Assembly (NCBI GenBank): GCA_963281255.1
Contig: OY725501.1
Span: 3,573,674 to 3,637,673, forward strand
Direction: 5' to 3'
From: Aphrocallistes beatrix
Lineage: Eukaryota > Porifera > Hexactinellida > Sceptrulophora > Aphrocallistidae
Length of the DNA: 64,000 nt
Below are positions 685 to 55,515 of this stretch, piece by piece; positions within the stretch are counted from its first letter, which is position 1, and each line of letters opens with the position of its first letter. Under the pieces are notes generated by a model. The model did no database searches. It saw only the letters and a program-made list of their open reading frames with translations, and was not told where the DNA came from. A program made the position numbers and the translations under genes.

Positions 685-3384
685 CTGATAGTGATTGAGT
701 TCGGGTAGCAAGTTGCTGGGAGGAGAGAATTTCTTGGGAAGAGCACACTTCACGACTGGCTCCTCTACATCATGTCCCAACAGCTTGTGGTAGATGTAGT
801 AGCTGACGCTGTTGTCATCGATAGCGAAGGTTTTCAGTCCGTTCAACATTCGATCGAAACTGGTTCGCTTCCAGACGAAATCCACACAGAAATTGTGCGT
901 GCATTCTGTAGGGACGTTACTGCTGGAGCGGAGTTCTAAGCCAACTTCTTCTCCGAAGCTGTTCGGCACTTTCACAACGTGTCCCACTCCTTCCCAATGC
1001 TTGTGCAGTGACCCCGTGTACCTGTGGATACGAGCTGACATTATACGCAGAACTGATTTCAAACCATTTTAAAATGGATACTTCTTGATGGGAAAGATAT
1101 ATAGAGTAAGCAGAGGAATTTTAACCAAAACCTAGACACGAAAAAAACATTGGACTTTCCTAGACAAAAGGTAACATAAATGGATTTGGGATATACAAAT
1201 CTACTCCCTGCAAGAGATACAGTCAACTCCGCTTAATTGGGACAAGTCTCCAGGAACGGAATGGTTCCCATACATAGAAGCTAATACTAAATATCATTGG
1301 TTAATTGGGAACTCCGCTTAATCGAGACAAAATCTCCGGGACTAAAGTGTCCCGATTAAGCAGAGCCACCTGTATCTAAATATAGAAACACACGCATACC
1401 TGAGTTTGAGTTCGTCTCCTTGCATCAGTCTCATGTCCCCGTCTCCTCTGGGGAAGTTGAAGTAAGCGATCCTCTTCTTATTCAGTCCCACGTCCCACCT
1501 CACCACTACGTTGTCCTGCGTCTGGGATTCTTTCAGTTTCTTGTCGTAGTCCGCTTCTAGCTTGATGAGCGGAGTCAGGATGTTCTGGTACAAATATGCG
1601 TCTGCATACCTAACCTAAGAAGTGGTTGCTATGTAAACCTGAAGCTAGGAGCGTTCCACTCATTCTTACTCGCCTGCACAGGTAGAGGTTCGTCGTCTAT
1701 GCCTGGCTTCTCTAAATCCTCCAGTTTCGCATCTGGATTGTCCTTCCACAGTTCCTCTAGCTTGTTGATCTGAGCCCCACTGATCTGTCTCGCTCTCAGC
1801 TGTTCTTGCTCCGAGGGAATCTAGGAAACACAAACATAAATACAGTCGACTCCGCTTAATCAGGACACTTTTGGTAGGACCGGAATAGCTCTCACACATA
1901 GAAGCTATTACAAAATATTTTCGGTTAATAGGGTTCTTCGCTTAATCGGGGCAAAATGTCCTCTGACCGATGTGACCCTATTAAGCGGAGTCGACTGTAC
2001 AAAATAATGTCATCGTATATTATGACGTCATACCTTGACGAGCCAAGAGAGGAAAGATCTGTCTGAGATGAGAGGCTGCCATTGCACGGGGTCCCAGTCC
2101 ATATCCTTGAGATTTGATTGGTTAGCGCACGGATGCCTACACAGCAGCACTACTACTGAGTCGGCCTTGGCGGGAATGAATCCCAGAAGGAACACATTCC
2201 TACATCCACAGTTGTAACACTCCAAGATGGTCTCTCCTAGCGGCGAGTCTTTGTGCAGCATCACTTCCTTGCACTTGGAACGTACGAGATGGTTTACTAT
2301 GTGAGCTCCTAACCAATGTTAGCAGTTAAGAATAATGTTAGGCATATACAGTACACCCAAGCTAATCCGAACAGCTCTGTACCAATATCGAAAATATCGT
2401 TCGGATTAGTGAAATAACACTAATTCATTGGGGTATTAACTACGTGTATAGTAAATTTGTATTGTAAGAATATTAAGGTTAATATGATGCAATTATTGCT
2501 TTTTTAAAGAGGTTTCTCAAACTCATTTAAAGACATAATATTATAAACGTTGATTTAAAGCATAGAGGCGAATAAGATTATATGTTGGGTGTTCGGATTG
2601 TAAGAATGAAGTGCTCGGATTGGCGAGGGTGTACAGTATTGATATCATGGATACGTCCATGGTCCCACCCACAGGAAACCACGTACAACCCTGCGTGACA
2701 TACTCTGCCACTTCATTAGAAACCTGAGGTGTTGCCTCTGCCATTACAGAACCACTTCTTGGTCTGCAGACACTGCACCACTGCAGAGGGGTCGTGTATG
2801 CCGCAGTATACACACGCATGCTCTGACCAATCAGACATCCGTCTGTCATCCTCCCCTAGATCCTCATCCGCTAGACTGGGGGCCAAGGAGAAGTTCAGAT
2901 CTCCGAGCTTGTCACTCATCGAGTCGAGGGCACTGTCTCTCCCATCTCTGTACCCCTGGGTAGGTGTGAAAAATTAATATACAGTCGACTCCGCTTAATA
3001 GAGTCACTGTTTAATCGGGCCACTTTTGGCAGGACCGGAATAGCTCTCACACATAGAAGCTAATACAAAATATTTTCGGTTGATAGAGTTCCCCGCTTAA
3101 TCGGGGCAAAATGTCCTCTGACCGATGTGACCCTATTAAGCGGAGTCGACTGTAACTGGGTTTAAATTAAGATGGAATTATTAAGCAACAGAATCTATTT
3201 TAACATCTGAAGAAGAAGCACGTACTCTGTAGCTATCTGATCTTCTGTAGTGGGACATGTCTAGGTCAGGCTGGGAGGAGAAATCATTGAAATCGAAGTC
3301 TTGAGACTGAGTATCCACATACTCATCCGGGGTTTCTAGGAACGCCAGTGTTTGAAGGTTATTCAGTAATGGAATATCACTCAT
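685..3384 (-). CDS. UPF1: UPF1 (RENT1) RNA helicase, 5' half, six exons, continues off-window
   Basis: ATP-dependent RNA helicase central to nonsense-mediated decay. Exons, in transcript order: 3384-3226, 2955-2724, 2308-2034, 1820-1670, 1601-1400, 1021-685; all have GT-AG borders and phases agree (452 codons). Exon 1 has the acidic UPF1 N-terminus ([20 protein letters not shown]). Exons 2-3 carry the Cys/His-rich UPF2-binding domain ([49 protein letters not shown]). Exons 4-6 carry the 1B region ([41 protein letters not shown]-like, ending ELNHYQ). The helicase core lies left of the window. I start at the ATG at 3384; an upstream in-frame TTG is unlikely. The exon 4/5 junction (Asn codon) is the least certain. 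Three of five introns carry a MITE-A copy. Confidence 0.95.
1220..1372. mobile_element. MITE-A copy 1 (diverged), UPF1 intron 5
   Basis: Begins CAGTCAACTCCGCTTAATT and ends with the inverted form (...CCGATTAAGCAGAGCCACCTG), flanked by TA on both sides. It is a shorter, more diverged relative of the copies at 1843 and 2982. The TA target duplication and CAGT-type terminus fit a non-autonomous Tc1/mariner/pogo element; it has no coding capacity. Confidence 0.8.
1843..1997. mobile_element. MITE-A copy 2, filling UPF1 intron 3
   Basis: Terminal inverted repeats CAGTCGACTCCGCTTAAT...AAGCGGAGTCGACTG, flanked by TA. The interior includes ACCGGAATAGCTCTCACA and ATATTTTCGGTTAATAGG, shared with the other copies. 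It makes up about 155 of the 213 nt of this intron. Confidence 0.9.
2340..2420. repeat. Fragment of a pogo-like element in UPF1 intron 2
   Basis: CTAATCCGAACAGCTCTG and the inverted ATCGTTCGGATTAGTG form a hairpin near ACAGTACA. The stretch resembles the short CAGTAGAACC...AATCCGA segment at about 29232-29290. It is a weak match with no clear target duplication. Confidence 0.4.
2982..3152. mobile_element. MITE-A copy 3, UPF1 intron 1
   Basis: TIRs CAGTCGACTCCGCTTAATA / ATTAAGCGGAGTCGACTG, flanked by TA at 2980-2981 and 3153-3154. About 171 bp with the same interior as copy 2. It occupies most of the 270-nt intron. Confidence 0.92.
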
Positions 3385-3933
3385 CTCTGATATATGAGAG
3401 TAGATTCTAACCAATCAATATCTCTACAGGGAAGTGGTATTAATCCTAACATTTATATACATATACTACAGTAGTGGCAAAGCTTATACAACAATATGTC
3501 AAAGTCCCACGCGAAAAAGAGGGAATAACTCAATTATTTTCATAGAAAGAGAGGAGAGTTGAGTTAGTATTGAATAACATTGAGATACCATTTAACTAGC
3601 TAGTGACCGAAATTCTAGAAAATCTAGCAAACTCCTCCTAAATGAATCAGTTTTCCCGATAATTCACCACTTTGTGATTTATATAATTAAGATGTAGTAT
3701 CGGGGCCGCGGTAAGTCACAGAGGACCACCGGGAAGCAATAAGGAAGCGTGACCAAGATGGGATCACGGGGTCGAGGGTCACCCTACTGATGAGTCCCTG
3801 AAATGGGACGAAACCCCACTAGTAACGGTCAGGCCGACTAGTCTACAGATCAGTTGAACTAACATTATTACATAAGATGAGTGGATTCATTAGAGCATAT
3901 GGCATACATATATCCTATATGGACTGTACAGTT
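3385..3933. other. Intergenic spacer between UPF1 and the 440-aa gene
   Basis: Holds the presumed UPF1 promoter side and the hammerhead at 3768-3817. The GC-rich stretch about 3695-3850, including the small inverted pair ACTAGT...ACTAGT around 3818-3842, differs in composition from the AT-rich flanks and may be one small retroelement. No other gene seen. Confidence 0.5.
3768..3817 (+). ncRNA. Hammerhead ribozyme motif (type III layout)
   Basis: The 50-nt segment has the full hammerhead core in order: stem III strand GGGGU, cleavage triplet GUC (predicted cut after 3773), a short stem-loop I (3774-3786, GAGGG/CCCUA around a UCA loop), CUGAUGA (3787-3793), stem II GUCCC/GGGAC with a UGAAAU loop (3794-3809), GAAA (3810-3813) and the closing CCCC. 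Stem III pairs GGGGU with ACCCC perfectly; stem II is five perfect pairs. The weak point is a G-A juxtaposition at the base of stem I and its short loop. It lies between divergent neighbours (UPF1 start at 3384 and the gene ending at 3934). Animal hammerheads often belong to Penelope-like elements or retrozymes; I see no second copy here. Confidence 0.8.
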
Positions 3934-5256
3934 CTATAGATAGTGAATGTCGCTAAGCTTGGCTCGGTGTGAGGTGTCAGATTCCAGAGACAGCTGTCTC
4001 TGAAGTTTGGAGATGATGGGAGTGAATTCTAGACTGGAGGCAGGACTAACCGCACTGTCCATTGGATCCTCGAAGTTCCGATTTTGAGAGGAAAAACTGC
4101 GATTTGATTGGTCAGCAACAGAATCTGGGGAAATGCTTTCTGAATTCATATTCTCGAAATCAAACGAATTAATTCTTGACTCGGTGAATTCATTTGGTAC
4201 AAATTCGTCGTCTTGCAAGAAGGAATGTTGAGAAGAGGGAAGGTATTCGGAAGTGGAACTGTCAGGAAATGGATTCCCAAACTCTGAGTGTTGAGAGGAT
4301 TGATAGCCAGGAGTGTCGAATTCCTGAGACTGCATCTGGTTGCCTTGGTGAGGAAACTGGAATGTGTAATCTGATCGTGTAGGATGACTGTACATTGGAG
4401 CCTCAGAGAAAAACCTGTTGGAATTCATTTCATTTTTCCGCGCAAAATTCTCAGAAACGCGCACATTTTCACTTTGCGCGCCCAAGCCTTTGAAAGCGAG
4501 CCTTTGAGCATACCTCACATCTCCATTATGCATATCCTGCACTTGCTCTCTCTGCTCTAACACCACACCAGGTGTGACGTCATCAGACAGATGGAGAGAC
4601 TGCTGAATGGATGAGTTCAATTGGTTGTCTTGATAACTCTTACGGACTGTGTAAGAGACAATGTTGTCTTGATTCTTCACTATCGTTTCTCGCATTACGT
4701 AAGTGTAATTCGGGTTGCTATCTTTTCCTTCGGAAGAATTGCTTCTATTCAGGATGAGATTATTATAACTACCTGGAATAGGCGTATTTCTGGCGGGTAA
4801 TTTTCCATTTGCTCTCGTAGTCGCAGTATTCGTGTCTGGTGTGTTGCAAGTACGGATTAGGGGGGTCTTGAGTTGGGATGGGGTAGGAGAAGCATCAAAC
4901 GAAGCATCTAAGTTTCCGAGATCTATTGGACAAGTCACATTCAAATCAAACTGTGTTATTCCCTCAAACTCATCTCCAGACCCATTCTCCTCCTGATGAA
5001 AAGAAGGAGCGTTTTGATCATCGGCGAAACGTACTTTCTTTTTCGGATTCCGTTGCGCTGTTTCCATTTTAGACAAATCTCTTTTGGGTTTGAAAGAAGA
5101 AAATTGTTCGCTGCCCTTGGAGGAGAATGCTCCATCTTGAGTGGAGGCTAGCCTGCAATGTGATTGGCTGTTAGGCTTGAATGAGTCTTGACTACTGAAT
5201 GTGTCGGAACTAAACATTTCAGACTCAGAGTATGATTGGGCGATGGAAGGTTGCAT
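3934..5256 (-). CDS. Unrecognised 440-aa disordered protein with a KVRF PP1-docking motif
   Basis: Single-exon frame starting at ATG 5256. I do not recognise the family. Composition is Ser/Gln/Asn-rich, with many Phe-Ser-Ser and SSQ pieces and no apparent folded domain, signal peptide or membrane segment. Residues about 67-80 read QRNPKKKVRFADD: KVRF at 74-77 matches the RVxF docking motif of protein phosphatase 1 regulators, preceded by a basic patch. The C-terminus (FTPIISKLQRQLSLESD) could be a short helix. A PP1 targeting or nuclear scaffold role is only an inference. The length without stops and biased but non-repetitive composition support a real gene; transcript evidence would settle whether further exons exist. 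Confidence 0.75.
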   Translation of the reverse strand: MQPSIAQSYSESEMFSSDTFSSQDSFKPNSQSHCRLASTQDGAFSSKGSEQFSSFKPKRDLSKMETAQRNPKKKVRFADDQNAPSFHQEENGSGDEFEGITQFDLNVTCPIDLGNLDASFDASPTPSQLKTPLIRTCNTPDTNTATTRANGKLPARNTPIPGSYNNLILNRSNSSEGKDSNPNYTYVMRETIVKNQDNIVSYTVRKSYQDNQLNSSIQQSLHLSDDVTPGVVLEQREQVQDMHNGDVRYAQRLAFKGLGAQSENVRVSENFARKNEMNSNRFFSEAPMYSHPTRSDYTFQFPHQGNQMQSQEFDTPGYQSSQHSEFGNPFPDSSTSEYLPSSQHSFLQDDEFVPNEFTESRINSFDFENMNSESISPDSVADQSNRSFSSQNRNFEDPMDSAVSPASSLEFTPIISKLQRQLSLESDTSHRAKLSDIHYL

Positions 5257-5328
5257 GTGTTCTATTTATAGACTAGAGTTAGTATAATTAAATATAAACA
5301 ACAACAAACACAAATTTTAAATATTATA

Positions 5329-5518
5329 CAGTCGACTCCGCTTAATAGGGTCACATCGGTCAGAGGAGTTTTTGCCCCGATTAAGCGGAGAACCCTATTA
5401 ACCGAAAATATTTTGTATTAGCTTCTATTTGTGAGAACTATTCCGGTCCAACCAAAAGTGTCCCGATTTAGCGGTTGACCCGATTAAACAGTGACCCTAT
5501 TAAGCGGAGTCTACTGTA
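5329..5518. mobile_element. MITE-A copy 4
   Basis: CAGTCGACTCCGCTTAATAG at the left and AAGCGGAGTCTACTG at the right, flanked by TA (5327-5328, 5519-5520). About 190 bp, intergenic just upstream of the 440-aa gene. It retains an extra GCGGTTGACCCGATTAAA segment near the right end compared with copies 2 and 3. Confidence 0.9.
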
Positions 5519-6371
5519 TATTGTGTATACGTGTTATATCTTGAGGTTTGCAGAATGGAAAGTTAATAAGATAAACAAAACTATATTTCTCTAAAAATAT
5601 GGTTATTGCTTGCATTTGCTCTGAGCTAACTAGGTTGTGGTGTATGCATATAATATCAAGAAAGATGATATGTGTGAGATAGTTGATATGCTTAATGATA
5701 TTCCAGGGAGACCCGAGAACTAAAGTGGCATATAAATGTGTCTCACTGAGCCACTTAGAGAATAGAAAATGAATGTCAAAACTGAGCTTAAGTGTAATTG
5801 TCTAGAAATGTACAGTTAAAACTTTTTCATCTCCAAATGTTCCTGAATAAACTACCAAATTGGCACGATCATTGGTAGACTACCATTGCATTGTGCCAAT
5901 TTGGTAGTTAGGTAGCTAACCCAGCATTTGATTATCATCTATCTTGCTGTTACATTCCAGCCTTATACTTATATTATGTAAATGATAGTTTAGTTTTGAT
6001 ATAGCTGAGTCTTGTGGAACATCGATTGTTTGGGTGAACGCGAGATTTATTCCAAATCCTGGACTCTCCTGAACATCCACTGAAATCTATAGCAAAAATG
6101 GGTTGTATAAAAGGATTATGTATAGAAAATCCAACTAGTGATTATGAACTTTTGAATACTGCGGAATTTTGAACATTTTGAATGGCTTATTAGTAATTAT
6201 CCCTCTATGTGCTATGGTTCCACAAAAGTTTATCCTTGGAACATCAAGAATATCTTGGAAAGTTCTTACGAAAACCCTGAACTATCCAGGATAAACCACA
6301 ATAGTAACAGGAAACAAGCTATAATCACTATATATACTAATAAGATCAAACTAGAATAGGAGTGTGACAGA
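5519..6371. other. Intergenic, promoter side of the NHL host gene
   Basis: AT-rich, with the hairpin at 5851-5908. I see no other gene or transposon that I can support. Confidence 0.4.
5851..5908. repeat. 58-nt near-perfect hairpin
   Basis: A 16-nt arm, ACTACCAAATTGGCAC (5851-5866), is followed by its exact reverse complement at 5893-5908. The 26-nt centre itself contains the inverted pair TGGTAG/CTACCA. The RNA would fold as a long hairpin of precursor-microRNA size; as DNA it could equally be a foldback MITE relic. No target duplication is obvious. Confidence 0.6.
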
Positions 6372-9300
6372 ATGGCACGTGGCAGAGTGGAAGAGACAGA
6401 GTACGCCGCTGTAGATATTCCAGTGGTGGGGTTTGAAGTTAACTGCGATTTTCTAATCACAAATATCAACACTCAGTTCGACGCTATTGTCTCAGAGATT
6501 AACACCCGCAGAGAGGAGCTGATCAAGAGTGTGGAGAAACTGAAGACAGAGTACATCAACTGGATCAAGCATATCGGTAGGTCAGACACTTAATTATGAA
6601 AAACTTAAACATCATATTATCCAATTATCTAGATCAGGGCTGTCCGACTATATTTACTTCGGGCCGCAACTGCTTCATACCATTTAGTGGCAGGCCGCAA
6701 TACAGGGGCGTGCACTCGGGATGGGTATGGATAGAGGCATTTTGGACGCAACGCGGGCCGCACAAAGCAAGGCCGCGGGCCGCCTGTTGGACAGCGCTGA
6801 TCTATATAAATCTACGTTCAATGAACCAATCATACTTTATAACCCAATCCGAGCTAGGGAGTTTGGTGTCTCTAAGCCAGTGGTTCTCAACCGGGGTGCC
6901 GCGGCACCCTGGAGTGCCATTTGCTTCCTCTAGGGGTGCCGCAGGCCTTACCACACTTACATACTGCTTTATTTTATTTTCTATTGATACCATTGTCAAT
7001 GTTGAATTTGAAGATTGTCCGAAAATCCTCTGGAATAATTTATTACACAATATTCACAATAATTTCCTAGTTTATTAATTAGTTCTTCTATAATAAAGTC
7101 GTAATAATTCAAATAAATCTCCACTTTTACTATCATTTGTTCATTGGCCTGCCCCTAAGTAAAATTAAGGGGTGCCGCTAAAAGGTATAAGTTTAGAAAG
7201 GGTGCCGCGAGAGGAAAAGGTTGAGAAACACTGCTCTAAGCTGTAGATGTTCAAATATTTTAGTGCAGCATCTAGTATAGATGCATTATGTCATTATCGG
7301 CGTGCTACGTCTGTACATACCTCTGTCCGTCTGCTAGCTCCTGGAAATTATATTGGATCAAATTGCACCAAATTTGGACTATATATTCCTTATATGAGGT
7401 TTGAACCTAGGTTCAAATTCTGAAAATTTTAAACACCTTTTCACAAAAGGTGTGAAAATATATTAGCCAATATAATCCAGGAGTTTAATACTACAGTTGG
7501 CTATTTATATGAATTAATAGCTCGTATGTACAAATAATTTCTAATTTGTGGCTCTCGATCTCGTTGTTTCAATTAAGAGATTTCAAATAAATATAATAGT
7601 ATTACTACTATAACGGTACATATAACTACGTAACTCATTACTAAGAACTCTACCTATCTACGTAGTAACTACCTATCTACCACTATATTATTTTAACACA
7701 GTTCCACTTAGGACAGGTCACTATCAATTTGTCTTGATACACTGCTACAGAGTTGCATTCTGAAATATCTTCACTGTATTCAGTCCCTTTCCCAATCGCG
7801 TAAATCTTTTCACCATTCTGGTTCACAACAGTCATTCTGTTATCATTGCTGGAAACTAAAATAGCATTGCCAGAAGGATCAAAACAAAATGAAATGATGC
7901 CATGATAGTATGTGGAGTCTTTGGCTATTATCTGATGAGAAGATCCGACAGGTTTCCCATCGATTGTGTAATAATGAAGACTGTCCTGCTGATCTAACAC
8001 ATACAAACGGTTCTCCATAAACTGAATACACTTAGGAGGGTAAACCAGCTCAATGTTTCTCCTGTAGTGTAGACTTAGATCGTAAATATGAATGGTTTTG
8101 AAATTGCAGTTAATTACAAATATTTCACCTTCATAGATCTTTAAGTCAACGGGGTCATCAGGGCTCCCAGTGTAGAATTTAAAAGGAATACTTTTCCCTC
8201 TTCCTTTAACCGCATAACCTCGTTTACTAAATGTATGTATCATATATTCAGATTGGGTGTTCCCTAAGATGTAACCATGATATCCAGTCATTGCAACTGC
8301 TTTTGGCTTGAAATATTGATCTAAAGCAATACTCCATTTGTAACGCCAATTGATTGTATTAAAAACCTGAACTCTTGATGTATCAACAACATATAGCTCT
8401 TCCCCATCGATGTGCAAATTTATCAAATATTGAAAGCCACCATCAAACGTGCCTTGTTCGCCAAACACACAACTAGCCATTATCTTACTGGAATAATCAA
8501 TAGCTCTAACACCATCAAGTGTAATAGCTCCTAGGTTTCTGAACTGAGAAGGAATTGCACATTCAAACTTAAGCTTGGGAAGTTGAACAAGTTCAGATTT
8601 CAGATCTTGGATCTGTTTCTGAACTGGAGTTAAGGAGGGTTGTATCAAGTTAGAATCTTGCGCTTGACTGGCACTCAACTGTTCAATCTGTATTCGAATA
8701 TCCTCCAACTTATTCAAACTCTCTTTCTGAGATTTGAGTTTTTGCTCAAATTCTTCTTTCTTCTTTCTCACCTCTCCTAACAGCTGTTCCATTCTAGCAG
8801 TCAGCTGATCGATCAGTCCTCTGAAAGTGTCGGTTATTTGTTGAGATATCTCATCGAATATTGTCTGAGTTCCTGCCCTACTAGCCATTATACTGAGCGG
8901 ATTCAACTAATTATAACAACTAATAAACAGAGTAGAAACAGCAAGACTAGCAAACATTAAGGGTTGTTAACAGCTATCATTAATATAGTACCTTGCATAT
9001 ATACCCTTGATCATAACACCCAATACACAACTACGTAAATATACTATATCTGGTGCTATTCAATAAGATTTTGTAACAATTTGTGTTGCTGTTCAATATC
9101 TACTCGTAATAATATTGTTCAATTTGGTTTCAATCATCTCTTTAAAATGATAGGCTAAACATTTGGGGTTTGAATTCCCCTATCCTACTGTTGTACCAGT
9201 GTTTCTTAACCTTTTATACTTCCGCACCCCTTCAACTTTCAAAATCAACTCTCGCACCCCCTGCTAAACGAAATATCTTTGATTTTCTGACTAAACAGTA

Positions 9301-30000: not shown

Positions 30001-33000
30001 TATTTTATTGGTTTAATTAGAAATGCAAGGTTGCAATCAGTGAAGATGCAGCCACTACTTTCAGCGCTTTGTCAGAAGGAGTCTCCATCGGTAAGAGCAT
30101 GGGTATCAATCCAGAGCGATGTATACAGCCTTACCACTTCATTCTACTCCTCAAGAAAGAGAAAAGTTTAAAGATGCACTGGTAAGCCTTTGTTAACTAT
30201 TCATTCTTATGCTTGGTAATTTTAGATATTCAACTGTTTCTTCTGTAGCCTAGCATTTGAGAAGCTAATTTCGCTCTCTTCATACTCAGAAGGTCACCAA
30301 TTCATTATCAAGTTTAAAGAGTATTTCTATCAGTGGGATGAGACCAAATTTGACCAATTAGTCAAAGATCCAGAATATATAATCAATGTACGTCAGAGTA
30401 GAAAATTCTTATGAAAGTTGGAAGTGTATTTATTGATAATTTTCTTTTAGGCTTGTCGACTGATGAGTTTCCTTGCAGGAGTTGTTCACAGCGCGAAAGA
30501 ACTGGCTCCTGCTGAAGCTATTAAGAGTAATGAACAACTAGAAACGGTCTGGACGAACATCTATAATAGAATAATCGTGCTGTGGGCAACTCCCTTCGGT
30601 ACTGAACTCCCTCCCACTTACCCTGACGATCTGCTGGATTTCAAGATGCTATTGAACCTCCCAACAGCTCCGGGGCTCAACAGAAGATGGACTTTTAGTT
30701 ACATCAACCCAACTGTAATTGACTAGACCATATGATAACTGTATTCTTTCATAATTATGTGATGCTAAGCTGTGTTTTCTAGTTGAAGACGATCATCAAT
30801 CGCACTAACCAATATTCTCCTGAAGTGTTCTACTCCATCATCACCAAGTTCTCATTCCTTATTAATAAAGAAGTTTGTGAATATACTTAAAATATTAACT
30901 GGAGAATCTCGATGTGTATGAGCGTTTAAATCGCTAGGGTCATTTTTGGGGTAGAATTAGTCAAATATCCCTTGAAAACAAAACGATCCCTCCTTAAATC
31001 TTAAAAATTGGCCCTAGTAGTGTGGTAGTTTAACTGTTCTCTTTTGCTGTGTTTAGTTCATAATGGGATATTTGGAAGGATGTACACACAAGAAAGATGT
31101 GTCCCTTCGTGCCAAGATATGGGTCCAAATCCTAGACAATGCTTTCACAATCAGGTGAGTTCACACACTACTACAGTTATAATACGTACTATGACTCTAC
31201 TCTACAACGTATCTGATAGTACACAATATGAAGATTCTAAGCGGGTGTTTGAATCAGTTCTAACTTGCCTCCACAAGATCTACAAACAGTACATTTTTCA
31301 TCAAACAACCAGAGAGAGAAGCATAACCGGGGTGTTTGATTTTATTAGAGACTTGTTGTTAATAAAACTGGAGTGTAAACCCAACTACCATCCGGACCGA
31401 ATTAACCAGACCGAACCTTGGAAGCAATTTAAAGCCAGTTTCACTCGACTCACTACTCAAATTCAGAATTATTTGGGTTCTATCTTTGTTAGTTGACATT
31501 ATAATTTAGATAATTGTGGGTGTCTTTTGAAATTTAAACTTTTTCCTTATTTATTAGTCCGCTCTACCGGATGCAGGAGAAACTACAATCCTTCAGGAAT
31601 GGTTTATGGACATGATCTTAGACGTGAGTTTTTCTTATAATAACTACAAGCGCGCTTCGCTTGCTTGCGCTGCGCGGCTTGCGGACACTGCGTGTCTGCA
31701 GATTTACCCAGTGGGCGCTTGCGGATATTAGAGAAATAATACGTCGCTTTCTTGTTTTATGCTAAGTACGCTGGATTATCATTTGTCTACGGTTACATTA
31801 ATGAAATCAGAACTGTAGCAGAAATTTTGTTTCGTGATAAATATAATTTACTTCGTATTAAGAACTGAATGTAAGCTCAATTTGAATACACAAAGTTCAC
31901 ATTGCTAAATATTATTATACTTAAATAATCAATTCCAGTCCATGTCGTTAAAAGTTATTTTATGATCGAATTGATTGATCGTAGCATATAACACACTTTA
32001 ATTGTTGTTAACAATCAAAATATAGACTCAAAATAGCAGTATTCAATCATTTATATGAAATAGGATCGTGTGAATGGCATTATAAAAGGCTGATAATTGA
32101 TTGGTTCACATAAACCAATGAATTTCAATCACAATTAGTTCTTTGGATTGTATGCATAAGTCATTACTATTTTATTCCAATGTATTTGCATTATAGAATA
32201 ATCGAATTTGATTGGTCAGCACATTTTGTCACCTATCTCGGCGAGGTGTGAACATTTCGCTTAGATCTTCGAACTTAATCCTAGATTCATCATTTGACAC
32301 GTACATGCCAATTTTCGTATCTCTACGACTTGCCAATTCTTCAATCAATTCGGACAAAAAAAAAAAAATCCTGGAGTTTTAATATATAAGATATAGACAT
32401 GTTTAGTACTTAAGAAAAAGGAAAATTCCCAGGAAAATTCTACTTATTTTGAATTTTAATATTGTATCTCCTATAATTGGTGGTCATCATATTTATAACA
32501 CGCTGATCAATTTTACAAGTTGGTGTAATAAAATTGTTTAACAAAAGTGAAAAAATATCAATAGATAAAAAATTACATTAATTTCAGAGTAACCAATACC
32601 AAAACACCTCCAAATGGATTTTTATAATATACCATTATCATTAATTACGATTTTTTGCTGTTTTGATATTTTTGATATGATTTTCATATCACTGCAGGCT
32701 GCTACACCTGTCCAAAATGAATTGATGTCTCCACAGCCCACTCTAACAACGACAAAAGTCTTCGCTGCTTCAATAGGCACTGTTCAAGAGTGGTTCAAAA
32801 GATTCGAAGTACAGGATCTCACACCGAAGTATTTATACGCATGGAAAATGCTAGCTTCCTGCTGTAAGAACACGACTGGAATCAAACATCTTCAGCTACA
32901 CAACATGCCTCAATTTATTTCCTCTCTACTCGAGCTATATAGTAACACTACCCTGATAGCTAACACGTATCTCGAAGAGACCTGCATTCAGACTGTTGTA

Positions 33001-36000
33001 GAGTTCTTCGCTAATGTGCGAGAACATTTAAAGGCAGCTGCCTACGATATACAGAAGAATAACATCACATTTACACTGTTATACGAATACCTCAAGAACC
33101 AAGATAACATCTGCAAACTGTATCGGATGTCTGAGCTAGGAAAAGTATTCACGAAAGAGGATCTAGGCAAATTCAACACTCAGTACAACCAAGTTAATAA
33201 CAAACTTTCAAAGAAGCTGATCCTACAGTTACCTAAGAAATCATTTCCTCACTGCCCTTGGAAGTTATTGAAGGATGCTTTGGAACAGTTCGGAGTAGAA
33301 GTAGCTCATCTGAGTAGGATACACACTTTTTTCAAAGTCGTTCAGACGGACTCGTCCGAATATCCTTGTTGCATCGAACCGATGCCTGACATCAAGATAA
33401 ATGAGCACGAAGGACTCAGTAGTCAGAATCTTGAATCTTTGGAGCCTCTTGAGAAGTATGAAGAATTTTTCACTTATTTCTTTCTTCAGAAAAATGACCT
33501 CTTCATGGCCAGCTTATGCTATTTCTGTCAGAGAGAAAAGAAGGAAGATGATCCCCTTTCAATCGAATCTTTCGGGGCTGCTGTTGCCCACACTTACGAA
33601 TGGCTTGATAATCTTATTCAAGAGAAATCTACATTCGCAGACATTAAGCCGATATTTGAGCTCCTTGATCCAAGAGTACTGAACCTTGATCTGATTAAGT
33701 CTCAGTTCCGTAAGTTTCCTCATTTCGCCAGCCTCACTAGAGACCTCAAATTCATGAACTTGTTCGAGTTACTTCTGTACAGAGCACATCTGCCGGCCAT
33801 TGAGCAAGCCTGCGAGTCATACGGACTGGAAGGATGTAAGCAAAGTCCTCAATTTAGAAAGATTATAAAATTCTCAGAAAAACCACAGGATGACTATTTC
33901 GTTAATCAACTAACGATTTCTGATGCGTCGAATTATCTGTATGAGCTTAGAAACTACCTGTCCGGGGCCAGCCCTCGCAGACTTCGGATATTTGATATCA
34001 TGATTAGCGCAAAGGAATTTTACAACTTCTTAATGGACCCGGAAAATGAATATTACAAGACAGAACGGCGTAAGCTGTTTTTTGACGAGATCAAGATCAT
34101 CACTGGAGATCTGCAGAATGAAGATTACAACGATAAAATCCTGAGTCATCTCCAGATAGCTTACAAGTTCATCGTTCCATTCTGTTTCAAAGATTCATCA
34201 TTTAGTGAACTAATGAAGCAGATCACTTCTGAGGAATTTAAGAATGGAGAAGAGTCAGGTTTTGAGGAACTTGAGACTGTGAACAGAAACATTAACCAGA
34301 TTCGACTCTGGTTCATCAGAAGTAGGGGGGAAGCTGTTCACGATGATTCTCAACAGCTCACCGACATTCTTTTGAATGGGACATTCGAGATAAAAATAAG
34401 TGCTGCTACTCTCAATCCTGCTATGTGCTCACCCTTATCAATGATAGACCCAAGGGGAATTTCCTCCACTATCCTACTCACATACGGACAATGCATCTGG
34501 AAACGCAGGCAAACCTCAACTGCCGAATCTCCCTCTGTCTTAAACGCACAGCAAACACTTCTGAATAAGGTACTGAACCAGGACATGATTGATGAGTTCG
34601 TTGGGAAGCTCGGATTTCCGGAATTCGATAAAAACGACTCTCTTCGCGAGAAGACGCAGAAGTTTCGAACATTCTACAGTGACATCTTGAAGCTAGCAAA
34701 GATTCTAACTCAGCTCCATTACTACGGACATCCTGAATTCATGACTTGTACAATGAAATATCCTCTCAATAAAGATATCTCAGAATTGAAGCAGATAATT
34801 TCACAATACGAGAGTAAATTTTACACATGGAAGCAGGGAATAGACAATAGAAACAGTGTGTACCCACTTCTCTCTCACTTCACGATGCAGCGAGTCACTG
34901 CCATCGTTAGAGATCTCAATCTTCAGGATTGGGATGAGGCAGCACAACTTCTGGCTTTCCTTTTCACCAGGAGTCAAGGTTTGCATTCTAAGCTGGCTGA
35001 TTGGTTGAGAGAAAACTTTAAATCTTCAGAGGGCGGTGTCAGTTCTTCAGAACATCTCGGCAAGCTATTGAATTTGATGCGAGAAAACTCGGAACTTACT
35101 GCGTACGTTGCCACAGATCAAGTTGTATTGTGTGAGTACTTGGTCCCCGCTAGAACTGTTGATCAAGAGAAACCTTGCTTCCACCATATCCACAAGTACC
35201 ACAGCGTATCTGACCTCGAGATAATGTCTCTCCTCATCAGCTTGTACAGCGATAATCCTTTCCATATTCCACACAATACTGAAATCCTGCATTGCACTCC
35301 TACTACAGGCGAAGAGGAAATAGAATTATTCCTCAAAAGAACCAAGCAATTCCCAGATTTCATCTACTCCTTAATCAAAGTGAACCTGCTTCCCACTAAC
35401 CTGCAGGAGAAAATAGTTTCCCACATGAGTAGACAGAAGAACATCTCTCAGACACATTACATAGAGACAGGTCCATCCGTATTGAGAGAATTGTCTACAG
35501 TCAAAATACACAATATTGGCACTGAGCCGAATGATAACATTGAAGAGCGTTATTATGATTGCCTCAAGTACTTGCAAGATGAGAAAATATGTGATGTTAT
35601 GTTGGTCTATGGGCTTGAAGGTGTGGGAAAGACCCACTACATCAAAGAGAGGATTCGTCGCGCTAAAGATAGAGATAATAACATTGATGTTGTACAGGTT
35701 GCGATTCATGAAGGGTTTTGTTTGACAAAAGTCATCGACAAAATAAAATCTAAATTCAACTCGAACAACTTGAAATCTGGCAACATAATGTATTTTAATT
35801 TCACCATTGCTTGCCCTAGATTTGGGAAAAAGGATAAAAAGTTTGAAGAATTAATGTCTTCAATTTGTTGGTTCTTTTTTCACCTATTTATACTCGGCTA
35901 TGTATACGATGCGCCCTCTGGCAAGGGATTCTACATGCCTGTGGGTCTAAACTGGAAGATTTTTATCGAAGTTCCGATTCAAGCTACTGACCTTGAGAAC

Positions 36001-39000
36001 CCCGGATCTCACTCACGAGATCCGATCATACTTCTCGACAATTTCCTGGATTCCGTCCCCATTTTGAGGTTTATCGGAAAGAATAAACTCATTGAGGCGA
36101 ATAAACCCTATCTTATTGATGAAGAGGTTCAGCTAGTTTGCAAATATCTCCGTGCGTTTGAAGAGTATATGACTAGAAAACCTGGACCTAAATTTGCGCA
36201 GTGTGGTATCAACACTCTATACCAAGAGGGAAGTCGTGCCCCTATTCAATTTGGTAGACATACAGAGGTCCCTGATGCCCAGTGTTATACATTACTCAAC
36301 AAATACATGATAGCTGAGGTTCAGCCGAAAAAGGTACTGCAAAAATTATTTATTAAATACATGCATCGTCGCTGTCAGATCCTAGAATCTCTTCCTGCTT
36401 TCAACTTCAATACTGGGAATTCCTTCACAATGGAAGTTGAAGGGGAGAAGAAACGGGTTTCTCTCAAGAATCTCGGCTCTACCTTAATGGAGTTAATGCT
36501 GAATGAGGTCAATAGTACTTTCTGTTGCTTAATATCCAGCAGAGAGTGGTCCTCACTGGAGCATCACCAGCTGGTGTACGACAGTGTGGGAGGGGGACAC
36601 TCCTTACTCTATCTCTCACTCAACCCAGAGAAACTTCCACCCGTCATCACACAGGAGTTAGACAAGATCGGTGTGTTTGTGCCACAGAGGAAACAACTCC
36701 AGAACAGAGCTACACTTGACCATTATCTGACAAGTGCTATGGGAATACGAATACCAGGAGAGAAGACTATGCTTCAGTGGATTGATAAGGAGAAATACAT
36801 CTTAACACCCGACCTTGTAATGAAAATGATTAACATCAATGAACGTCGTCTGTGTGGCGTTCCTGTTATCATAGAAGGAGAGACTGGTGTAGGTAAAACA
36901 GAGCTAATACGTATCCTGTCATTGCTATGGGATATGCCGTATGAAATTGAAATAAAGCAATGGAAGATAGTTTTGCATGAAACTTTGTTAAATAAGATAG
37001 CGAATAAAGATGATGAGAAATTTGTAAGAGAATGTTTTCACTTAATCGAGAAGATTGTTCTACCTTACGCTGGACCAGACTTGGACCAGGAATTAATTGA
37101 AAAGATTGAGTTAATAATGCAACGATTCTTTCACAGTGTCGTAAAGTGTTTAAAAGACCTGGTTGAAATGCCAGCTTTCTACTTGCTAGATTTTAAATGG
37201 GATGAAAAGTTGCATGAAAAAATAATTCAAAACAAATGCTTGATCGAGGATTGCGCATCTCTTTCAACATTTCTTATCAATCTACTTAAAGCTCCTCTCA
37301 TTAAAACATCTACTAAACTCAACCTGCAATCCAGAATAACAGAAAAAGAAATCAAAAGCAATTTGAACTCCATAATTCAGAGAGCTAGAACAATTCATAA
37401 TCGATGTACCAATTTAACCTATCAAAACATTAAATCTAGGAAGAAGATACCAATCATGAATTTATTCTTTGATGAATTTAACGCCACTTCATGTCTAGGC
37501 TTAATCAAAGAAATCATGACAGAAAATACAGTAGAGGGTACTCCGTTACCTAATAACCTGTTCGTGATAGCGGCATGCCATCCACAAAGAACCTTATCTG
37601 TCCCTGTCACTAACCAATCGAAGGAACTGGATTGGGTGCTAGGCTGGTACCATGTCAACCCAGTACACCCGACTATGGAACTGTTGAAGTGGAACTTTGG
37701 TGCATTAAACGAAGTGCAAGAGAACGAATACATCGCTAACTTAATGGCCATCACTGCTGTCAAGTTCAAATCGAAAACAGATAATTGTCGCTCGTTTGTA
37801 CAAGTCCCTTCAAAGGACCTTAAAATTTTGAGTACTTTTATTTTCAGAGGACAGAGCCAGGTACGAGAATATGCTCGGGAGACTTTGACGAGTATTTTCA
37901 ATGAGAAAGCAGGAGAAAACTTAGACAAGGAAATTCATGATAAACACCTTGAAGAGACTAATTCTCGTGCGAAGAGCTCAGCTAGTCAGCGAGATATCAA
38001 GCGTGTATTCATTCTCATTGAGTTCCTAGGCTCCATCATAGAGGTACCTCCTGATTTGAAAGGAGAGGAGATAACCCATTACAACATGTGCAGGAGAATC
38101 ATACTCGTAGCAGTAGGGATTGTGTACTACCTCCGTCTGGATCATCAGTTCCGTAAACGGTTTAAAGCCTCCATCAATATCGACAATCTTGCAAAGTTTG
38201 AGGATATATTCGAATACGAAGTTAACAGCTTTATCAACAAGGCAGATCTCCCGCATGGAATTGCAAAAACTCAAGGTTTGAAAGAGAATTTATTCGCAAC
38301 CATCGTGTGCACGATCACGAAGATTCCGCTCATCATTATTGGACCTCCAGGCACCTCTAAAACCCTTTCATTCAACCTGACTGTGTCTAACCTTAACAAA
38401 GCTAAGGACTCGAAATGCTATTTCCAACAGTCAAACTTTCCTTCCCTTGATGCACAGTACTATCAATGCTCTCCCAGATCAACCTCAAAAGAAATTGAAA
38501 ATGTTTTCAAGCGCGCTATGGAGAAACAAGAAGCGAATGACGAAGCAGGTGTTCCAGTCAACTGCGTAGTATTTCTAGATAATGTGGAACTACTAGTGGA
38601 ACAACAGGACTCGTTGAAAGTTCTCCACTACTTCCTAGATACTCCCAAGGTCTCATTTGTGGCTATCTCCAACCACATCTTGGATGCGGCTAAGAGCAAC
38701 AGAGCTATCAACGTATTCAGACCCTATCAACAGGATGCAGTGAGTCTCTCCCTATTCAGTCGATTTTATTAGCAAATTTAATCTGTTTACTTATTGCTAG
38801 AATGATCTGTGCGAGCTAGCTCGAGGCTGTTTCCTACAGAATGAAAACTCTAAAATCCCTACAGAGCTGGAGAGTAAGCTCAAGCAGTATTGTATCGCTT
38901 ATTCGCGTTTGGAATTTCACCTCAAGTAAGTTGGGATATTCCTAATATGACGCTTTAGTTTATTCGTGAAGGGATAAACTTTATAAAATGTTGGAATTTG

Positions 39001-52500: not shown

Positions 52501-53961
52501 TCATTCTTTAGTATCTACATCAATGTCAGCAACAATTTTCATTTTATGGTTTAAACTCTTTGGAAGTGCTGAACCGATTAAGACACAGCAAACTAGAATA
52601 AAACCATTCAAAATGAAAACGAAATGATAGTCAAACGGGAAGAGGTGTGTTTTCAGTGAAGCTGAGAATACAGAACAGCTGCATATTGGACCAATCGCTT
52701 TGAAGAGACTACTGAGGGAAGTAGACAATCCGTTAACAGCTCCTAGCCTATCAGCTGTCACGGAGTTACTGGTAAACATCAACAAAGCAGTCGTGACTCC
52801 TGAAATTAAAATCCGTGTTAGAAACATGAAGACACCAAACAAAATCCAGACAGCAATGTCACTATTTATAGCTGTTACAGACGGAACCAGCACGAGTAGT
52901 GGGATCAAGAGTATCAGCATGACATGATAGGATCTCAGGGTTCCTAGAAGCCAATTCATCATTTGGAAAATGGATAAATTAAAAGGTAGAGCTGCAAGCG
53001 TACTAATCGAAATTATCATTGAGTACTTCCACATAGACATATCTAATCCTCCGAGATTCCGTTGTAGTTCAGCCCATAAAGGCGTTACCTCATCCACTGA
53101 CATGACAACCACTGAAAAGACAGAGTTCAGTACCAGCACTAGCATTACAATGCGATTGGTCAGCAATCCACAGAGTACACTGCCCCGGGAATTCAACTCA
53201 ACCGACTTTTCTTTTGTTTTTGACTCGGTTGCGTCATTCAACTTTTTCTGAGTTTCTGTTTCGTTTGCTTCACAATCTTCACTTTCAGCGATTGAAGTAG
53301 AATCTATAACATTTTTGTTGTTTTTGCGTGTTTCTTTCATGAAGAAATAAACAACAACAACACCAGTTAGGGCAACAATAGCATCCATAATTCCTGGTAA
53401 CATGTATGGGAACTTTACTAATATCCAAACAGGAGGAATTCCGTACTGTTTAATTGGGTCTGCAAGAAAGCCACTCACTGACGGACCTATCACTAATCCT
53501 AAAGTATGGATAGAACCAAGGATGTTCATTATGAACGACTGTGTTGAGTCATCGCTTAACTCAGAAACTGCTGCCTTCGCCGTAGGAGAAATACCATTAA
53601 AGAGTCCGACTAGAAATCTTAAAATTAATGCCATAAGAAATGTGACAGAAAAACCGAACCCTAGAGTAGCCATGGCAAGAAGTGTCCCCGAAATGATCAA
53701 AACACTTTTCCGTCCGAATCTATCGGCTAGATATCCCCACATGTACGAACTCAACATTCTACCGACAAACTGAGCACTTGCAATAATTCCCGAGTAGTAG
53801 CCGACATCTCTCACATCCAACTCTGGGATAATGTGTTGCACCATCCATGGGAGGTAGGGGAACACTTGAACGAGTGTGTACATGCTGGAGAAAAGGGAGA
53901 GTAGTGCTGGAGAGCTTCTCTTCAGGACTGTGACGTATTTATTCATTTTGTAGCAGTTCAT
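52501..53961 (-). CDS. MFS transporter, DHA1/ZIF-like, copy 1
   Basis: 486 aa, intronless, ATG at 53961. Twelve-helix major facilitator with motif [11 protein letters not shown] at 76-85 between the second and third membrane segments, a second-half loop RSYHVML, and [15 protein letters not shown] near 155-170 (motif C-like). A charged cytoplasmic loop (ETRKNNKN ... [20 protein letters not shown]) splits the two six-helix halves. The sequence resembles the drug:H+ antiporter/ZIFL group; substrate unknown. It is nearly identical to the copy at 61216-62676 on the other strand (about 15 differences), so a very recent duplicate or converted pair. Confidence 0.9.
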   Translation of the reverse strand: MNCYKMNKYVTVLKRSSPALLSLFSSMYTLVQVFPYLPWMVQHIIPELDVRDVGYYSGIIASAQFVGRMLSSYMWGYLADRFGRKSVLIISGTLLAMATLGFGFSVTFLMALILRFLVGLFNGISPTAKAAVSELSDDSTQSFIMNILGSIHTLGLVIGPSVSGFLADPIKQYGIPPVWILVKFPYMLPGIMDAIVALTGVVVVYFFMKETRKNNKNVIDSTSIAESEDCEANETETQKKLNDATESKTKEKSVELNSRGSVLCGLLTNRIVMLVLVLNSVFSVVVMSVDEVTPLWAELQRNLGGLDMSMWKYSMIISISTLAALPFNLSIFQMMNWLLGTLRSYHVMLILLIPLLVLVPSVTAINSDIAVWILFGVFMFLTRILISGVTTALLMFTSNSVTADRLGAVNGLSTSLSSLFKAIGPICSCSVFSASLKTHLFPFDYHFVFILNGFILVCCVLIGSALPKSLNHKMKIVADIDVDTKE

Positions 53962-55515
53962 CGCTTCTTTGGATGTATTTTGACTTCAACTTTAACTTCA
54001 ATGATATCCCAACACAAACACCTGATACTTATACTACATTTTAGCTTACTTGTACATGAGCACTCAGCCAACATGAAAGTCCTGAAAAAAAGGATTTTAC
54101 GCATTCACCAATACTACGTATGCCGCACAACATTTTTGGTTGCACAATCCATACACTAATATTCTTTCCAAGAGGCTTAACTAATCAGATTTTTCATCTA
54201 ATAGATTCAATCTATGAGGCTAGTGGGCATTTGGCTTATTTATGTGCATCACTAACTGAATGGGTGGAGTTATGATCCCCAGAATCAACACCCACATCTC
54301 ATCAATGTTTAAGATTTTCGTGACATAACATGAGATTTCCTTGCTTATTGGAGCATTTGAAATTGCAGCGTCGATAATCATCCATTTAAGTCATAGTTAC
54401 TATAAAAGCAAAAATGCAAAGTAGTCGTTTTTATTCGATTGCTCAATAATGTATAACAATTTTTCAACGAAAATTGTTAATCATAAATGTTCATAAATGT
54501 TTCTAAACATTGTAAAAATTCTAGATGGAAATATATTAGAACTTCCCTCAGATTGTTGTTTTTCTAATTTTCTCTGGATTCAGACTGAAATGACACGTCA
54601 CGTCTGTTTGTTCTTTCCTGGAAAATCAACTGGACTAAATTGGATCAAATTTAAATAGAATCTTATTCGTGCAGTGTAGACGATATCGTACAGCTAGCTT
54701 CCTCATAACAACCACTCTAAACTGACTTCATATACAACCATTTTTCTTCCTTAGGTATCCATAATTTTCAAAACTCCAATTACTGTATGTCAAATCATAT
54801 CCACAGACCACCACTCTGCTATTCAGAACGAATAATGATTACTAACCCTGACCTACTGTGAAATGCAACCAATATATGAGAGCAAAAATTAGAGAAACAT
54901 AAGAGATCACTGATCACGAATCAAGCAAAGATAAAATCATGTTATGAATAATTATGCTAATTCTATTCCCACAACATTTATATCATTTAAGAACTACTTA
55001 CTTAACTATGTATCTTCTTCCGTCGCTAAATTATGCAAAAAATGTCAGTCGACAGATCAAAAGTGAAGCTCCAGTGAAATATAAGCACAAAACCAAGGAA
55101 TGGAAACATATGGTAGAGCCAGGGTTGCCTCTAGCCACCAAATATTTCAGATCCCCTGAAATCGAGGGGCTGGATTCAACCCTGGCGATAGTCTTCTAAA
55201 TATGAGAATCAAACTTTTCATATTTGAGATAGGCCGTAAAGTAAATTCTAATAATTCTTCCAAAGAGTTTAAACCATAAAATAAAGATTTACACATTGAT
55301 ATTGACAGCTAGTATCTAGCATATTTATAAATTTATTTACTTCAGTATGTAACTATTGTAAACAAAAACGCTTTTCATTTATTCAGATTTAACATACCTG
55401 TGTGGAGGAATGGTCCCATACCCTTGTTAGAATCAATTGCAAATTCAATTTTAATTACAATTATCTCAAAAATACAATAATCTTAGTGGAAATTATAGAA
55501 CTTTTTAAGTTAAAA
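53962..55515. other. Duplicated flank of MFS copies
   Basis: The 5' flank of MFS copy 1 (53962-55200) is repeated, with small gaps, at about 56169-57430 behind the truncated copy (for example GTAGTCGTTTTTATTC and TGGAAATATATTAGAACTTC in both). It ends in a CAGGGTTG mini-element (55120-55184). The frame at 54954-55199 is not shared with the duplicate as a conserved gene, and I reject it. Confidence 0.7.
55120..55184. mobile_element. 65-bp hAT-like mini-element (CAGGGTTG)
   Basis: CAGGGTTGCCTCTAGCCACC ... GGCTGGATTCAACCCTG: 8-bp inverted ends and an interior shared with the longer copy at 57961-58318. The target duplication is not clear here. Confidence 0.7.

Follow-up and report, generated by a model that had tools for sequence, protein, structure and literature searches.

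A type III hammerhead motif in a probable solo-LTR-like element of the sponge Aphrocallistes beatrix, with features of plant LTR retrozymes

Type III hammerheads in LTR retrozymes are given for plants and type I hammerheads in non-LTR retrozymes for animals, the types being "mostly" so divided in the available excerpts of the literature (PMC4918200, PMC7229834, PMC7761336, PMC6155905, PMC11722881). What kind of element, then, would carry a type III hammerhead in a sponge? The question is raised by the stretch of DNA analysed here, 64,000 nucleotides of contig OY725501.1 of the hexactinellid Aphrocallistes beatrix, referred to below as the window. The initial annotation had placed at 3768..3817 of the window a solitary type III hammerhead ribozyme, and had suggested that it belongs to a small retroelement, either a retrozyme or a Penelope-like relic.

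The hammerhead motif and its fold

The Rfam search of the 64-kb window returned a single match at gathering scores, Hammerhead_3 (RF00008), at 3766-3819 on the plus strand, with 57.9 bits against a cut-off of 48.5 and an E-value of 2.8e-10 (8e-12 when a 1.8-kb stretch was searched alone). The bare core pattern CTGATGA...CGAAA is by itself weak: it occurs three times in the window, versus 0.25 expected, and one of the three, the one at 3766-3819, is a hammerhead by Rfam. This motif is a type III hammerhead: it keeps the core, forms three stems of which stem III has the open ends, and scores above the Rfam cut-off. The fold proper occupies 3768-3817. As read from the sequence, stem III pairs 3768-3772 with 3813-3817, the cleavage triplet GUC ends at 3773, and the core segments CUGAUGA and GAAA lie at 3787-3793 and 3810-3813. 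Stem I (3774..3786), placed by the sequence and the alignment of copies, pairs 3774-3778 with 3782-3786 around the loop UCA, and stem II (3794..3809), placed by Rfam and the same alignment, pairs 3794-3798 with 3805-3809 around the loop UGAAAU. The coordinates, the fold and all core letters of the initial annotation were upheld, and its cut site after 3773 agrees with the triplet ending there. Its description of "two perfect stems" holds for stems II and III, and the G-A mismatch that it had noticed at the base of stem I (3774/3786) is present.

Is this fold maintained among related copies? Covariation was assessed on 20 aligned copies, those matched by RF00008 among the 34 genomic places described below. 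Across the 15 hammerhead pairs, 91.2% of the cells hold standard pairs, and slid structures reach at most 60%. Changes on both sides of a pair were counted in 11 cells, versus 2.9 in shuffles, and none of 500 shuffles scored as high. Six pairs are changed on both sides, four of them in stem III, a single measure that is weak since the control slid by +3 has five. Kinship among the copies inflates these covariation counts. The annotation had staked its reading on a covariance match and on the retention of the core elsewhere: the match is present, and of the 20 aligned copies 15 retain an intact core, whereas it is altered in 5. In the minimum-energy fold of window 3690-3860, stem III was not formed, and the stability compared with shuffled sequences was not unusual (z -0.43). 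On the evidence of sequence and covariation, the hammerhead motif at 3766-3819 is real, and it is predicted to cleave itself after 3773.

The claim that the surroundings are GC-rich stood for the immediate neighbourhood, where GC is 0.51 (3676-3825) versus 0.32-0.47 in the other segments of 3001-4650; elsewhere in the first 10 kb it goes up to 0.55. The window also encodes a G6PD, whose best PDB matches are human entries, and, at 32593-38772 on the plus strand, a single 2059-aa ORF showing AAA matches and one match of the dynein-motor type. The genome has six matches of Ets, a domain not known outside animals, which like the G6PD indicates an animal host; wnt gave 0 matches, as did its control. 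Two major-facilitator transporter ORFs of 494 aa each, at 52501-53985 (minus) and 61192-62676 (plus), have near-equal Pfam scores, and their opposite orientation makes an inverted gene duplication likely.

Copies, ends and insertion sites across the genome

The word "solitary" in the initial annotation is apt in that the motif is not tandem, but it does not extend to the genome, which holds 24 further matches. In the assembly searched (100.5 Mb, 28 contigs) RF00008 gave 25 matches at E<=1e-3, 12 of them above the cut-off. The ribozyme class of the window, with loops UCA or UUA and UGARAU and variants of these, is represented by 20 of the 25, and another hammerhead class by five (L018, L019, L021, L022, L025). 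A 28-base pattern of the ribozyme, searched on both strands with up to three mismatches, matched the genome 23 times, and its reversed control 0 times. From the profile, DNA and pattern searches we compiled by hand 34 places, partial copies included, a number that is to be read as a lower bound.

A DNA search with window 3697-3872, followed by alignment, defined family A: 14 places with common flanks, some partial, namely the window and 13 others. Family B (L005, L015, L023, L024 and the partial copy L057) is about 255 bp long and carries the same ribozyme within flanks of its own. L001 and L009, with weaker partial relatives, form a third set, and L003, L008, L013, L017 and L020 have the ribozyme in common and little else. 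The genome-wide covariance search proposed in the annotation has in this way been matched by repeated copies with conserved flanks. One member of family A, L011, combines the family A frame with a hairpin stretch of the family B kind, about 33 bp before the ribozyme; it is 87.5% identical to L005 over 88 bp, spanning the ribozyme and the ~33 bp preceding it. Judged by its sequence, L011 is a mosaic of two families of ribozyme elements, which fits template switching in a shared copying route. A prokaryote or phage origin found no backing: the 28-base pattern had no exact match in viral_contigs and genome_contigs, and the element had no match among phages, all three being collections taken to hold no animals and of little bearing on relatives.

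How did these units enter the genome? LTRs by rule begin with TG and end with CA. The alignment of family A stops at TGTAGTAT on the left and at ATTATTACA on the right, which in the window correspond to 3693 and 3872. The LTR-like element so delimited, 180 bp on the plus strand (TGTAGTATC...ATTATTACA), starts with TGT and finishes with ACA, and the 5 bp TAAGA stand on both sides of it, at 3688..3692 and 3873..3877, as a perfect target site duplication. Perfect 5-bp duplications also flank L007 (ATAGG), L031 (GCATG, with TATA as its right end), L012 (CAGAC), and L010 and L016 (GATTG), the last two being counted as one event because their flanks are alike. The duplication of L002 agrees in four of five bases, and none is present at L006, whose left end is mutated, or at L011. 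With L014 and L036-L039 left out of the count, as they lack a readable end, both ends could be located in eight independent insertions of family A, and five of these show a perfect 5-bp duplication at the family ends. In family B this is the case for two of four copies (L005, CTTCT; L023, CGGTT); L024 and L015 have no duplication at the family ends, and the partial copy L057 has its left flank in common with L023. The terminal bases are TGTARTA in family A and TGT in family B. Beyond the first few bases the two ends, compared by eye, are not inverted repeats, which favours LTRs over a DNA transposon.

The combination of TGT...ACA ends with an exact 5-bp duplication was found at 8 of 21 ribozyme loci, versus 59 of 2976 random centres (3000 were placed in the window, and 24 near the element were dropped). 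We relied on this stricter form because the looser TG...CA gave a control rate of 736/2976. Seven of the eight positive loci are positive at the family ends and represent six events; L015 is the one that is positive off the family ends. No TGT...ACA ends with a duplication were found at L001, L003, L008, L009, L013, L017 and L020. Empty sites were also seen. In L051, a duplicated sequence, family B units have been inserted at two points 8.4 kb from each other. The one at ~569-813 is missing from the paralogous place at ~7067, and the one at ~8942-9191 from the paralogous place at ~4423. Each is one unit of ~245-250 bp; at these diverged paralogues the target duplications are imperfect. The ends and the duplications taken together imply insertion by a Ty3-type integrase.

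This bears on two other explanations. In the excerpted literature, most animal hammerheads have their described homes in Penelope-like, SINE-like or tandem non-LTR retrozyme elements, and the annotation had mentioned a Penelope-like relic. However, the motif is type III instead of type I, all 34 places are single units with no tandem copies among them, the duplications are short and of fixed length, and GC is above 0.5. Since type I is the hammerhead that the excerpts give for Penelope-like elements and for the retrozymes of animals, and the units here have LTR-type ends, the Penelope-like suggestion is not supported, and a relic of any of these three kinds appears very improbable. The annotation's other suggestion, a small retroelement of the retrozyme sort, fits well with the repeated copies and their conserved flanks, the TGT...ACA ends, the 5-bp duplications and the empty sites. 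Alternatively, the ribozyme could have been recruited by the host and act on a neighbouring gene, as the element ends ~60 bp past the stop of a 440-aa minus-strand ORF. The ribozyme and this ORF, however, are on opposite strands, the window copy retains its target duplication, it has sister copies elsewhere in the genome and it alone has the stem I mismatch, so that host recruitment seems extremely improbable.

What is the state of the window copy itself? Units are 180-256 bp long. At 180 bp, the copy in the window is internally shortened, by ~40 bp relative to the 220 bp of L002 and L007. At the base pair of stem I where it has G-A, the other 19 aligned copies have G-C in 17 cases, G-U in one and a gap in one, and the mismatch is therefore unique among the 20. 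The window copy is, judging from these sequence features, probably a fossil. A different repeat lies nearby at 3000-3160 of the window; it has an internal inverted partner, recurs in L002 and L036, and looks like an unrelated short inverted-repeat element.

The parent element, its enzymes and a second hammerhead class

If the units are LTR-like, is there an element that has two of them? Among the 34 places of the lower-bound set, no pair in direct orientation lies within 8 kb: the spacing is 8.4, 9.2, 13.8 and 46 kb in the nearest direct pairs and 1.0 and 14.9 kb in the nearest inverted ones. Accordingly, neither a two-repeat element nor a primer-binding site or polypurine tract came to light next to the units at these places. 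A full-length parent was sought with units A, B and C as DNA queries, with the pattern and by neighbour distances, and none was found. The 8.4-kb direct pair on C9 was considered as an LTR element and rejected, since this is L051, a duplicated sequence with two separate insertions whose paralogous sites are empty. Both it and the 9.2-kb pair, which is likewise a family B one, have the look of separate insertions or of duplicated flanks. Another arrangement on C9, L052, has hammerheads in inverted 171-bp arms (1340-1510 and 2416-2586) that are 94% alike and 905 bp apart, with TGT...ACA ends and duplication absent; it may consist of two insertions or of an inverted duplication.

A two-LTR genomic form may never exist if the unit of 180-256 bp is the whole element, a unit-length circular RNA being copied into cDNA that a Ty3-like integrase then inserts. 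The missing direct pairs would be expected in that case, and the unit lengths are within the 170-400-nt range that excerpts of the published work give for animal retrozyme circles. Two of three family B units are, as linear RNAs, far more stable than shuffled sequences (z -4.3 and -5.7; the third, -1.5). Against this, family A units show little unusual stability (z from +0.35 to -2.4 in seven units), an unsystematic look at the unit revealed no primer site that would keep the exact TGT...ACA ends, and some LTR families are left only as fragments and solo LTRs according to the excerpt of PMC10886601. We consider this explanation unlikely.

Could the units be solo LTRs left by a Ty3-like retrotransposon, itself autonomous, whose LTR had acquired a hammerhead? 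The LTR-type ends and the 5-bp duplications would agree with this, as would the abundance of Ty3/Ginger-type integrase sequences: the zinc finger Integrase_H2C2 has at least 150 matches in the genome, which may include Ginger transposons. But the missing full-length copy speaks against it, as does the occurrence of the same ribozyme in several units that are dissimilar in all else. A search of 16 integrase loci of ~3.2 kb (of at least 150) yielded no convincing end of family A or B, a weak test, as many LTRs lie outside such stretches. These 16 loci contained four weak look-alikes of the family start (one in L081, two in L086, one in L087), and in two of them, L082 and L087, TGTA directly follows a purine tract ~1.2 kb past the zinc finger, so that LTRs in this genome may begin with TGTA like family A. 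A hammerhead-bearing autonomous parent appears, on this evidence, decidedly improbable. As to the reverse transcriptase with endonuclease that a Penelope-like element would have beside the ribozyme, ten chosen ORFs beside hammerheads, a minority of the flanking ORFs, included no reverse transcriptase match. A genome search for type I hammerheads with RF00163 gave 0 matches, with 73 of 13243 candidates scored and no positive control.

The second hammerhead class has another setting. At L071 (C13), positions 1342-7181 hold a 5.8-kb element with identical inverted ends of 88 bp, TGT...ACA termini and a 4-bp duplication, GTGC, read from the sequence. Its separate ORFs match Integrase_H2C2, rve (under its cut-off) and OTU, which by sequence is the make-up of a Ginger1 DNA transposon; the target GTGC differs, however, from the CCGG or CCGT that the excerpt of PMC2836005 gives as Ginger1 target duplications. 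The hammerhead (6009-6067) lies directly behind the OTU ORF, and together with parts of its surroundings it is kept in L018, L019, L021, L088 and L089. L025 has a hammerhead of the same class with no Ginger surroundings in view, and the stems covary with it, five pairs being changed on both sides. The 28-base pattern of this class has 30 matches in the genome (reversed control 0), six of which were viewed in context. Its RF00008 scores, 33-38 bits, are under the cut-off, with genome E-values of 4e-5 to 9e-4. A literature search for hammerheads with Ginger1 or DNA transposons found nothing on point.

Resemblance to plant LTR retrozymes

We favour, as the probable explanation, that an old copy, solo-LTR-like in form, of a small non-coding element occupies window 3693-3872, the element having a type III hammerhead in its terminal repeat and being an animal one that resembles the LTR retrozymes of plants. 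The abundant Ty3/Ginger-type integrase sequences and the two purine tracts before TGTA count in favour of this reading too. In the excerpts of PMC4918200 and PMC7761336, plant LTR retrozymes likewise have a type III hammerhead in an LTR-like repeat, a non-coding unit, GC above that of the genome, a short target duplication, single-repeat (solo LTR) copies, and families with little common sequence outside the ribozyme. They differ in being ~300-400 bp long with a 4-bp duplication, versus an animal host, 180-256 bp and 5 bp here, and in having two direct LTRs, a primer-binding site and a polypurine tract, none of which was seen at the 34 places. As the two-repeat feature is missing there, we call the element retrozyme-like and do not claim membership among LTR retrozymes. 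Of the hammerhead-like sequences of Jatropha, more than 70 in number, 48 are paired and make up 24 retrozymes, and the rest are mostly solo LTRs (PMC4918200, excerpt).

The element also has partial likenesses to other systems, as these are described in excerpts. Metazoan non-LTR retrozymes (PMC7229834) have in common with it the animal host and a small non-coding hammerhead unit of similar length; they are, however, type I, tandem, low in GC and without LTR features, with duplications of more than 4 bp, whereas the element described here is type III, occurs as single units and has LTR-type ends, with a unit GC of 0.51-0.62 (0.51-0.54 in family A and 0.61-0.62 in family B, ten units). Retrozyme GC is given as above 55% in plants and below 45% in animals, and a ceiling of 45-50% was applied here for the metazoan non-LTR kind. 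Penelope-like elements and Terminons (PMC7761336, PMC6431247) also place a hammerhead in an animal retroelement, theirs being a minimal type I. TRIMs, SMARTs, Helenus and Ajax (PMC10886601, PMC4918200) are equally tiny non-autonomous LTR elements, and Helenus has solo LTRs with 5-bp duplications and some families without full-length copies; they carry no ribozyme, and Helenus LTRs hold tRNA-derived sequence.

The plant model suggests how such an element might multiply. In plant retrozymes the transcript cuts itself at the two repeats, which frees a unit for circularisation and copying, and cDNA of solo-LTR length is one outcome (PMC4918200, excerpt). By analogy, a putative two-repeat element in the sponge would be transcribed, the ribozyme in each repeat would cut the RNA, and the RNA between the cuts would be circularised by ligation. 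A Ty3-like element, the candidate source of enzymes, would then provide the reverse transcriptase to copy this circle and the integrase to insert the cDNA, which would begin with TGT, end with ACA and leave a 5-bp duplication of the target. Unit-length cDNA could give rise to the single units, as could recombination of one repeat with the other.

Our literature search, in which the sources were available in part, found no recognised description of an animal LTR that carries a type III hammerhead. Type III hammerhead elements in bacteria or insects are mentioned with reference to work in preparation (PMC7761336, excerpt), and an atypical, discontinuous type III hammerhead is described in mammalian genes (PMC6155905, excerpt). 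More tentatively, and as a possibility that we would not yet bet on, animals may have LTR-type retrozymes of their own: type III hammerheads in tiny elements inserted by an integrase via circular RNA, separate from the non-LTR route of type I hammerheads. Elements that use a Ty3-type integrase would then have acquired hammerheads at least twice in this genome, once as LTR-like units and once as a Ginger DNA transposon. The sequences reported here can serve for direct tests of circular RNA and cleavage. If true, an LTR-like animal family with type III hammerheads would breach the division, as drawn in the excerpted literature, between type III LTR retrozymes in plants and mostly type I non-LTR retrozymes in animals. 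It would bear on the suggestion, made in the excerpt of PMC7761336, that plant LTR retrozymes originated by transfer from other organisms, and on the origin of viroid-like circular RNAs.
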